Source: Cytophagales bacterium (lineage in GTDB: Bacteria > Bacteroidota > Bacteroidia > Cytophagales > 172606-1). From it: 64,000 bases of DNA. Under the pieces are notes generated by a model. The model was given only the letters and a program-made list of their open reading frames with translations, was not told the origin of the DNA and ran no database searches. This document shows positions 13,923 to 30,099 of the stretch, one piece after another (positions within the stretch are counted from its first letter, which is position 1; every line of letters begins with the position of its first letter). A program made the position numbers and the translations under genes. Where the stretch lies: assembly GCA_030446715.1 (NCBI GenBank), contig JAUJMU010000004.1:1-64000 (forward strand), read 5' to 3'.

Positions 13923-13952
13923 GGACCCGATGCTGACATCGTCTGCTGGTCC
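13923..13952. repeat. GGACC...GGTCC mini-insertion (locus F) in IS3 orfA
   Basis: GGACC CGATG CTGA CATCG TCTGCT GGTCC between ERDIL and KKAVSIFS codons. Confidence 0.8.
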
Positions 13953-15299: not shown

Positions 15300-15393
15300 T
15301 ATAATGAGAGTAAAAAGCGCTATGGCAGTCCCAGGATCACCAGTGAGTTGAAAGAACTGGGTATTCAGGCTTCTCGTCCACGGGTAGCCAGGC

Positions 15394-15422
15394 GGACCCA
15401 ATGCTCAGGCACGTGCAGGTCC
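15394..15422. repeat. GGACC...GGTCC mini-insertion (locus A) in IS3 orfB
   Basis: GGACCCAATGCTCAGGCACGTGCAGGTCC between RPRVAR and MKKANIKSI. Confidence 0.75.
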
Positions 15423-15684
15423 ATGAAAAAAGCTAACATTAAAAGTATCATCAGGAAGAAATACCGGGTGCAGACTACTGATTCTGACTATGAATACGCC
15501 ATAGCTGAGAATACGCGATAGCTGAAAACCACCTCAACAGAGATTTTTCTGCACAAGTCACCGGACAGAAGTGGGTGACGGATCTGATTGGATCCGGTGA
15601 TCTGACTTATATCAGAACTGAAGAGGGATGGCTGTACCTGACAGCTATCCCGGATTTAGCTGACAGAAAGGTGGCTGGCTGGGC

Positions 15685-15714
15685 GGACCTCAGATGAGAT
15701 CTGATCTCAGGTCC
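15685..15714. repeat. GGACC...GGTCC mini-insertion (locus B) in IS3 orfB, perfect a-b-a'-b' form
   Basis: GGACC TCAGA TGAGA TCTGA TCTCA GGTCC between DRKVAGWA and MSDTMKAGDT. Confidence 0.9.
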
Positions 15715-15897
15715 ATGAGTGATACCATGAAAGCTGGTGATACCACCATAGCGGCCTGGAAAATGGCGGTCAGAAACAGACCTGTAAAGCAGGATCTGTT
15801 ATTCCATTCTGACAGAGGGGTGCAGTATGCCTGTAACGATTTCAGAGAGCAACTGAAAGGATTGCCTGTACTGCAAAGCATGAGCAGAAAAGGCAAT

Positions 15898-15928
15898 GGA
15901 CCTCAGACCAAGGCCTGATTTGGGGTCC
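15898..15928. repeat. GGACC...GGTCC mini-insertion (locus E) in IS3 orfB
   Basis: GGACC TCAGA CCAAGG CCTGA TTTGG GGTCC between SMSRKGN and DNAVAESFF. Confidence 0.8.
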
Positions 15929-16242
15929 GCCGGGATAACGCAGTAGCCGAAAGCTTCTTTAAAACGCTGAAAACAGAGCTGGTTTACCATGAAGATTATC
16001 TGACAAAGCAACAGGCCAGACTGGCTGTTTTTGAATATATCCAGGGCTGGTACAACCGAAAAAGAAGGCATGGTGCACCGGGCAACCGAAGTCCCCAACA
16101 CTACCAGCCTTATCTTGAACACCAAAGAACGGCTGCCTGAAAAAGTCCTCCAGTAAACTGTTGCAATTCCAAACGGGTGCTGTTCAGAATATAGCTCCCT
16201 TCACTTAAACTGACGAAGAACCACTTTTCAGTTAATATTTAC

Positions 16243-27659: not shown

Positions 27660-27900
27660 CAATGGAACCCAGGGCACCCTTCGGTTTCGAGGCCTTCAGG
27701 CAGCAGGCTATCCAAGGCTTGTACGCCGGCCAACCCATCAATGGCGAGTGGACCTCCGATGCTCAGGATGGGCAGGTCCGGGCATCTTCGCCCCCTTGCT
27801 AAAGTAGTAGCTGGAAGAGGCCCGGAAGGAGAAATGGCCGCTCACCTGAACGGAGAGGAACACTGGCAGGGCAACGGCCGCTGCATATTTCGGAGGATGT
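27660..27900 (+). pseudogene. IS256-family transposase, N-terminal fragment
   Basis: MEPRAPFGFEAFRQQAIQGLYAGQPINGE | (mini-insertion) | GIFAPLLK ... EGEMAAHLNGEEHWQGNGR. Confidence 0.65.
27750..27779. repeat. GGACC...GGTCC mini-insertion (locus H) in IS256 fragment
   Basis: GGACC TCCGA TGCTCA GGA TGGGCA GGTCC between AGQPINGE and GIFAPLLK. Confidence 0.75.
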
Positions 27901-28097: not shown

Positions 28098-29475
28098 ATG
28101 TCTCTACTCAAACAACTCTTACGTCTCCGGTCTCAGGGCTGCGGCATCAAGGAAATTGCCCGGCAGACGGGTAACTCCCGCAATACGGTCAGAAAGTATC
28201 TGCACTTAGCCGATTCAGGCGGGGATCCGCTGGAGGTGCTGCTGGCCCGGCCGGAAGGGGAACTGGAAGCACGGCTGATGCGCAGTCAGCCGGCCCAGAG
28301 CAGTGAATATCAGGCGCCGGAAGCCAACAAGGAGTATCTGCTCAAGGCCCTCAGAGAGCCGCACGTGACAAGGTGGCACCTGTGGGGCGAATACCGGCAG
28401 GTGCATCCTTCCGGCTACGGCTATACCCAGTTCTGCCACTACTTAAGACAATGGGAGCTGCCCCGCAAAGCGGTGATGCACCTTCTGCACCAGCCGGGGG
28501 AGAAGCTCTTTGTGGATTTTACCGGTGATAAACTCTCCATTATTGATCCTGCTACCGGTGAAGTGCAGGAAGTGGAAGTACTGGTGGCGGTGCTTGGCTA
28601 CAGCCAGTATACGTACGTGGAAGCGGTTGCTTCCCAGAAACTGGAAGACTTTCTGGAGGCCTGCCAGAACGCCCTGCGGTATTTTGGTGGTGCCCCCAAA
28701 GTGATTGTTCCCGATAACCTCCGCTCTGCCGTCACCAAAGCCAGCCGCTACGAGCCGCAGCTCAACGAGACCTTTGCTGATTTGGACCTGAGATAAAATC
28801 TCATTTTAGGTCCGCCAATCACTATCAGATGGCAGTCATGCCGGCCCGGCCTTATAAGCCACGTGACAAGGGGCTGGCTGAGAACGGGGTGCTCAATACT
28901 TACCGGCGCATCTTTGTTCCCTTACGCAATCAAAGATTCTTCTCGCTGGCATCTCTCAATCAGGCCATCAGGCAGCAGTTGGAGTTATACAACCAAACAC
29001 CTTTCCAGCGGGATCCGGACAGCAGCCGTGAGCAGCGTTTTCTGAGTGAAGAGAAACACCTGCTCACGCCGCTGCCAGCCGAAAGCTACAGCCTCCGGCG
29101 CAGCCAGCAGGTAACGGTAATGAAAAACTGCCACGTCCGGTTGGGTGCAGACCAGCATTACCATAGTGTGCCTTACCGCTACATCGGCCAGAAAGTCCTG
29201 CTGCAGTTTACTAACCGGCAGGTAAGTGTTTTTCACCAAAACCAACTCGTTGCCGTGCATCCAAGAGACCGGCGTGCCCACCGCTATACGACACTTAAAG
29301 AACACCTTCCCTCCACCCATCAGTACGTAAGCGAGTGGCCGGAGGCCTTCTTTCTGGAACAGGCAGCACGGATTGATCCGGCAGTAAGTGATTTCGTTGC
29401 CGGTATTCTGGCCTCTAAACGTTATCCCGAGCAAGGCTACAAAAGCTGCTCGGGGGTGCTGGCGCTGGCCCGGAA
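28098..29475 (+). pseudogene. istA: IS21-family IstA transposase, split by a 30-bp mini-insertion and truncated at the 3' end
   Basis: ORFs 28098-28796 (MSLLKQLLRLRSQGCGIKEIARQTGNSRNTVRKYL...LFVDFTGDKLSIID...FADL) and 28829-29635 (...ANHYQMAVMPARPYKPRDKGLAENGVLNTYRRIF...); C-terminus runs into antisense IS3 sequence. Confidence 0.85.
28784..28813. repeat. GGACC...GGTCC mini-insertion (locus C) in IS21 istA, perfect a-b-a'-b' form
   Basis: GGACC TGAGA TAAAA TCTCA TTTTA GGTCC between ETFADF and ANHYQMAV. Confidence 0.9.
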
Positions 29476-30099
29476 AACGGAAAAAGCCGTTTTTCTGGCC
29501 AGCAGAGCCATCTGTAAAGCATTCATTACCAGCCCTCTTTCCATCGTTTTATCCATCGCCCAGCCTACCACTTTCCGGGAAAACAGATCTGATACTACGG
29601 CTATGTACAGCCAGCCTTCCCGAGTCCACACGTAAGTGATATCAGTGACCCATTTTTCATCAGGTTTCGTAGCGTTAAACTCTTGGTTGAGTTTGTTTTC
29701 AGCCACCGGCAAGTCGTGTTTAGAATCGGTCGTGACGACAAACTTTCTTTTTCTGTATCTAAACGTTGATTATCTTCGGCCAGCGGCAATCCGGTGGTTC
29801 TTCATTAACCTGGCCACCCGGTTCTCCGGGCAGATTCTTCCCTTTTCCTGCAAATCCACACGGATACGAGGGCTCCCATACGTTTCACGACTCTGCTGGT
29901 GGATCACTTTGATTTCTTCCACTATCGGCTTGTTTTCATGTTGCCAAACACTTTCCGGCCGCTTTTTTCAGGTCTAAAAGCTGCTCAATGATACATCTGA
30001 GGCCTTGCACAGCCGCTCCGGCGAATACTCATTCCGATGCTCCTCAATGAAGGGGTATCTCTCCAGGAGCGGCTTGCGGACCTGAGGTACTGTCTTGAA

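Follow-up and report, generated by a model that had tools for sequence, protein, structure and literature searches.

Candidate mobile palindromes of about 30 nucleotides that interrupt transposase genes in Rhodocytophagaceae

Given that an IS21-type istA gene in the window (the whole stretch of 64,000 nucleotides of Cytophagales DNA analysed here) is broken by a block of 30 nucleotides, element C, and is otherwise open, we asked what this block is and how it came to lie within a coding sequence. Read in frame, istA runs from ...ETFAD into the element as LDLR followed by a stop, and ANHYQMAVMPARP resumes in the original istA frame; the joined flanks match Pfam rve with an E of 6e-11. Element C consists of six 5-nt blocks without remainder (5+5+5+5+5+5), in which block 2 pairs with block 4, block 3 with block 5, and the 5′ end with the 3′ end: two interleaved palindromes (X Y X′ Y′) enclosed by a closing stem. 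A search of the window confirmed the 30-mer on the forward strand, together with its relationship to element B, which a sequence-only reading had proposed: element C agrees with the reverse complement of element B at 26 of 30 positions, and the four differences form two compensatory pairs, CAG/CTG to AAA/TTT. The same reading had called the interruption a perfect modular insertion. The element does split istA, but the junction is not clean, as the F codon lacks one base (TT-30 nt-GCC; here and below, hyphens in nucleotide strings mark junctions).

Table 1 Interrupted istA, element C and related elements, with positions counted along the window
Feature	Position	Strand	Remarks
Related 30-mer GGACCCGATGCTGACATCGTCTGCTGGTCC	13923..13952	+	orfA/orfB junction, same IS3-type element; L074 position 424
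IS3-type orfB remnant carrying three elements	15322..16157	+	elements at 15394, 15685 and 15898
29-nt relative, same orfB as element B (VAR-MKKA)	15394..15422	+	two bases (TG) replaced
Element B (GGACCTCAGATGAGATCTGATCTCAGGTCC)	15685..15714	+	IS3-type orfB, after ...GWLYLTAIPDLADRKVAGW; empty site GGGC-A-ATGAG in L094, L096, L099
31-nt relative, same orfB as element B (SRKGN-WDNAVAESFF)	15898..15928	+	inverted relative to copies on C2 and at C7:112634
Related 30-mer GGACCTCCGATGCTCAGGATGGGCAGGTCC	27750..27779	+	decayed transposase N-terminus resembling IS256 (...AIQGLYAGQPINGE-..GIFAPLLK); family assigned by eye
istA 5′ part, IS21-type (MSLLKQLLRLRS...ETFAD)	28098..28781	+	dN/dS 0.105 against second copy, contig C10
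Element C, GGACC TGAGA TAAAA TCTCA TTTTA GGTCC	28784..28813	+	closing stem, X, Y, X′, Y′, closing stem
istA 3′ part (ANHYQMAVMPARPYKPRDKG...)	28814..29490	+	dN/dS 0.079; downstream end truncated by another IS fragment

The 30-mer of element C occurs once in the window with up to 3 mismatches allowed, and no Rfam family reached its gathering threshold there. When 464 kb of contig C7, to which the window belongs, were searched for the 15-pair 5+5+5+5+5+5 tiling regardless of sequence, 3 matches came up against 0.0004 expected, all of the GGACC type. The genome of the window (G000) holds about 45 relatives of 28-33 nt with ends as in element C; the pattern GGACCY...RGGTCC gave 50 matches in it against 17 for the reversed pattern. 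A separate control on reversed sequence was uninformative, since the architecture survives reversal and runs of N were counted. Many further relatives were found in the Cytophagales MAG YX2bin28 (G002), of the same genus, and in two genomes of a second genus, G004 and the isolate genome of Rhodocytophaga aerolata (G006). Rhodocytophaga belongs to the family Rhodocytophagaceae of the order Cytophagales, and the element-bearing family comprises soil bacteria. When 85,462 species genomes were scanned with a strict 30-nt pattern, matches were confined to these Rhodocytophagaceae genomes and one palindrome in a Mycobacterium MAG (L071), which is a long perfect inverted repeat and was set aside as a probable assembly artefact. 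The pattern was absent from 52 genomes from other families of the order, and the viral contigs searched gave no match. We reject an assembly artefact as the origin of the family itself, because the isolate R. aerolata and the single-contig genome G004 carry elements alongside the metagenome-type assemblies.

The differences between elements B and C had been described as mutually compensatory, and this description held up once many members were collected. Among 12 distinct 30-mers compared with 500 shuffles, 98.3% of cells were paired (87.9 +/- 1.3 in shuffles), 23 cells were double-changed (7.0 +/- 2.3) and the covariation score reached 0.349 (0.115 +/- 0.022), values of pairing, double change and score that none of the 500 shuffles attained. 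Sliding the partner by one column lowered pairing in these 30-mers to about 50%. The 29-nt and 32-nt classes behaved in the same way, with paired variants in the former such as CGAGG/CCTCG, CAACG/CGTTG, CGTCG/CGACG and CGACG/CGTCG, and at one IS1182-like site an entire base pair has been lost (TCAAGA/TCTTGA versus TAAGA/TCTTA). Pairing within the elements is under selection, and a chance origin is ruled out by the uniqueness in the window, the shuffles and the architecture search. In predicted folds only one of X and Y is paired at any time, and the strand of element C, as RNA, is predicted to pair X preferentially with Y′ through G-U pairs; a strand test on G-U wobbles gave cases on both strands. 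In our judgement, 5-bp stems make an H-type RNA pseudoknot with zero-length loops sterically unlikely. The same IS genes in G004 and G006 (L113, L117, L120, L018, L181 and L187) also hold different micro-palindromes at further recurrent positions, namely ATTGACC..GGTCAAT, GCAAACC..GGTTTGC, GGAGC N5 GCTCC and a 35-nt ACTACGTTGGCTTGC.. block, with closing stems altered to GGATC/GATCC among them.

Beyond what had been read from the window, the collected members showed transposase genes to be the hosts in nearly every case, a base to be replaced and insertion to recur at one site. All 14 pattern matches on contig C7 lie inside transposase genes (IS3, IS21, IS256), and the element-bearing kinds of IS comprise IS3, IS21, IS256, IS1182-like, IS66, ISL3, IS4/5 and IS630. 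A Pfam run on 20 representative joined flanks identified rve, DDE_Tnp_1, DDE_3, DUF772, Transposase_mut, the ISL3 zinc ribbon, DUF4096 and IS66; several of the 20 had no Pfam match, several of these being judged by eye, one matched ParE toxin and one a TonB plug, the host gene of the latter having apparently been struck by an IS fragment, again by eye. The clearest non-transposase context is a 29-nt element (L152, G000:C19:83273) just upstream of a ParE toxin gene, with an antitoxin-like frame on its other side; one G002 cluster lies just downstream of a transposase. A single gene can hold several elements, as in the IS3-type orfB of the window (three) and the istA of L079 (two). Furthermore, the same motif is struck in diverged IS3 subfamilies, at the Y of YGSPR, the L of R-L-M, the residue after WVSD and the C/Y of SRKGN-x-(W/Y)DNA, and some of these sites adjoin catalytic residues. 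The IS3 remnant of the window also holds, at about 15500-15640, a 17-nt near-duplication (ATAGCTGAGAATACGCG) and an 18-nt hairpin, CGGATC TGATTG GATCCG, which lies close to the catalytic D site. The IS3-type copies L092, L093 and L098 (G000 and G002), which are 98-99% identical across the two genomes, have G in place of both the D and the E of the catalytic DDE triad (WVSD to RVSG, AVAESFF to AVAGSFF).

Element-free homologues supplied the empty sites. These read GCGC-T-ATGG, AAT-T-GYTGG and GGGC-A-ATGAG in IS3 and AAATT-T-AAGT and TT-T-ATG in other IS3 subfamilies; the IS1182-like site is CCT-T-G(T/C)CAC when empty and CCT-element-G(T/C)CAC when filled, and an intact IS256 copy of 84% identity has ATGC-T-(C/G)TGG against the filled ATGC-29 nt-GTGG. 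Insertion thus replaces one base, usually T. None of the compared sites showed a target-site duplication, one or two bases being lost instead, and wherever it could be inferred, at ten site types, the lost base is a T of the coding strand. The boundaries follow a Y-T-R rule: among 67 distinct sites, the element is preceded by Y at 61 and followed by R at 65, with almost no further target signal. Exceptions that lose two or more bases are el1 (TG), L095 and L079, and the D1 sites of decayed copies have altered flanks.

The same nucleotide of the YGSPR site holds different element classes in different IS copies, L092 and L103 carry one element in opposite orientations at one site, and junctions at the el2 site differ among copies. 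In addition, the 32-mer of L195 has a 30-mer nested within it, which once more replaces a T, and filled and empty copies are interleaved in the tree of IS1182-like sequences. Together, recurrence, both orientations, nesting and the interleaved tree favour mobile elements over one ancient insertion at each site. L190 and L182 (G006 and G002) share a site near GEN-Y at which their elements measure about 50-64 nt and contain further palindromes, apparently through nested insertion.

Relative to its homologue on contig C10, the locus C istA has a dS of 0.59 before and 0.81 after the element, with strong purifying selection on both halves (Table 1), and yet element C is identical there at 30/30 positions. 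Likewise, the filled IS256 copy L140 (three identical copies) and the empty L206 differ at dN/dS of 0.041 and 0.044, with a dS of 0.85. Such low dN/dS values around the elements indicate that selection acted on the host genes until recently, or acts on them still. In G004, three element-bearing IS families are present as 8, 5 and 3 identical copies, intact element-free multi-copy families are present as well (8, 7 and 5 copies), and intact element-free IS1182-like singletons coexist with filled copies. Two of the expanded element-bearing families carry additional changes. In the IS256-like L140 (G004:C1 67300-70300), VLGIW is replaced in all three copies by the reverse complement of neighbouring sequence; the resulting palindrome is nearly perfect, has arms of about 19 bp and looks as if it arose by template switching. 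In the 8-copy IS3-type family (L131-L138), the element (+29) is accompanied by a TGGG to TCTC change (+1); both lesions together leave one open frame of 345 codons, with the intervening segment in another frame.

The reading that we prefer, and to which we give an even chance, is that the element is a non-autonomous, structure-dependent, ultra-short mobile DNA that inserts into transposase genes and disrupts them. Such an element would measure 28-33 nt, with a fixed GGACC/GGTCC closing stem and palindromes whose sequence is free provided that they still pair. Its insertion into transposase genes, at Y-T-R, would be carried out in trans by an enzyme; the inserted form would probably be a folded single strand, whose ends could come together at the stem's blunt base and span a one-nucleotide gap. 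Each insertion would cost one coding-strand T, sometimes two bases, would leave no target duplication and could take either orientation; its usual outcome would be a frameshift or stop, and hence an IS copy without transposase that could move only in trans. Beneath this proposal lie direct observations of architecture, covariation, empty and filled sites, T loss, boundary rule, nesting, both orientations, recurrence and confinement to transposase genes. The folded intermediate, the enzyme and some reason why transposase genes and the coding strand are chosen are inferred. Several findings sit uneasily with a free micro-element: spacers and host genes almost never hold elements, contrary to expectation; the same nucleotide is struck repeatedly in diverged IS copies although Y-T-R is common; and identical IS families of 8, 5 and 3 copies carry elements. 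As to a mobilising enzyme, genes with Y1_Tnp are present in genomes with elements and also in G001 and G007, which have none, and the distribution of neither Y1_Tnp nor RVT_1 (reverse transcriptase) genes appears to track element presence. The coding-strand T bias is hard to account for by a purely DNA-level process. It would follow if the process acted on RNA or on a strand displaced by transcription, or if only RNA-correctable insertions persisted; the latter possibility keeps removal from RNA alive as a hypothesis.

A programmed process of Rhodocytophagaceae that swaps a coding-strand T for a hairpin, whether by silencing at conserved motifs or with RNA removal that restores a U, is a possible alternative that we consider less likely than not. 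In its first form, a guide- or template-directed process, run by the host or by a competing element, would write hairpins into conserved transposase motifs and inactivate all copies of an IS. The near-exclusive presence of elements in transposase genes of all the IS kinds named above speaks for it, as do the shared motifs struck in diverged IS3 subfamilies, some beside catalytic residues, the otherwise pristine genes (dN/dS 0.04-0.1) and the three expanded families of G004 in which every copy has the same lesions. We nevertheless consider targeted silencing unlikely: an effector or guide locus was not found, other expanded IS families in G004 are untouched, one element lies at a ParE toxin gene, and lesions shared by 8, 5 or 3 copies are equally explained by copying of one lesioned IS in trans.

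Alternatively, the element would be a functional intervening sequence, either cut out of the mRNA or skipped by the ribosome in the manner of T4 gene 60 or the Magnusiomyces byps, so that the IS still yields transposase and remains active. In favour of this reading are the purifying selection on the istA parts flanking element C, the 30/30 identity of the element at a dS of 0.6-0.8 and the lack of close element-free copies for the element-bearing multi-copy families; furthermore, most 30-mers need exactly 29 nt taken out, the residual U restoring a conserved codon at ten site types. Against it, the length to be removed for the frame is 27, 28, 29, 30 or 31 nt depending on the element and 29, 28 or 27 nt among copies at the el2 site, one element lies inverted at its site, the filled copies form a polyphyletic set, and expanded families carry the replaced VLGIW and the TCTC frameshift as additional lesions. 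No one excised length would restore the frame at all sites, and an intron-like role is therefore not favoured. Given the variable length, the further lesions and the element-free multi-copy families, disruption with movement in trans is favoured over removal, which we rate as rather improbable. Shared ancestry alone, in which every site received its element a single time, in an ancestral IS, and paired changes then accumulated there by drift, is highly improbable: the IS1182-like elements of G002, G004 and G006 do have their site and junction in common and vary by compensatory changes, the base-pair loss included, but empty copies are nested among filled ones, one site has different element classes and junctions, and pairing is not kept by drift.

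If mobile, the elements would be among the smallest mobile DNA elements, and their restriction to transposase genes means that they act on the transposon population of the genome. A programmed process, if that is what operates, would be a new form of bacterial transposon control, one that the recurrent sites make testable in the cultured genus Rhodocytophaga.

Among known systems, the small dispersed repeats (SDRs) of cyanobacteria, reportedly described by Elhai et al. in 2008, are hairpin-forming sequences of about 21-27 nt that are considered mobile and in which compensatory changes preserve the pairing. Our elements resemble them in being very short repeats with paired changes and signs of mobility (nesting, empty sites); they differ from the SDRs in their interleaved palindromes within a fixed stem, the replacement of one T and the transposase targets. 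We know of no interleaved palindromes among the mitochondrial double hairpin elements. Those repetitive or double hairpin elements are very short hairpins with repeated invasion, organellar and mainly intergenic (PMC2800124). REP/REPIN sequences, small palindromic non-autonomous DNA, are mobilised in trans by RAYT (PMC3116915, which also cites Elhai et al. on SDRs, and PMC3733652), whereas our elements lack a GTAG or CGTC tag, beginning with GGACC and ending with GGTCC, are neither extragenic (14/14 on C7 lie in transposase genes) nor paired doublets, and do not appear to track Y1_Tnp genes. Rickettsia palindromic elements, of about 150 bp, lie in frame inside metabolic genes (PMC10969869); the likeness is that of palindromic elements within genes, the difference that ours are 28-33 nt long, mostly break the frame and sit in transposase genes. 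Byps occur in Magnusiomyces mitochondria. In Byp elements and the bypass of T4 gene 60, conserved genes are broken by short structured blocks, and one gene may contain several (PMC5009743). In this they resemble our elements, which likewise interrupt otherwise conserved genes, several in one gene; matched codons as in programmed bypass were not found at the elements, with removal lengths of 27-31 nt. Classical IS and MITEs share the terminal inverted repeats (GGACC/GGTCC ends), but our elements have no target-site duplication and lose one or two bases. To our knowledge, no known family combines interleaved palindromes with one-base replacement without duplication. By analogy, the element may work like the very small non-autonomous mobile repeats (SDR, REPIN and double hairpin elements), and we would class it with them as ultra-short mobile palindromic DNA.
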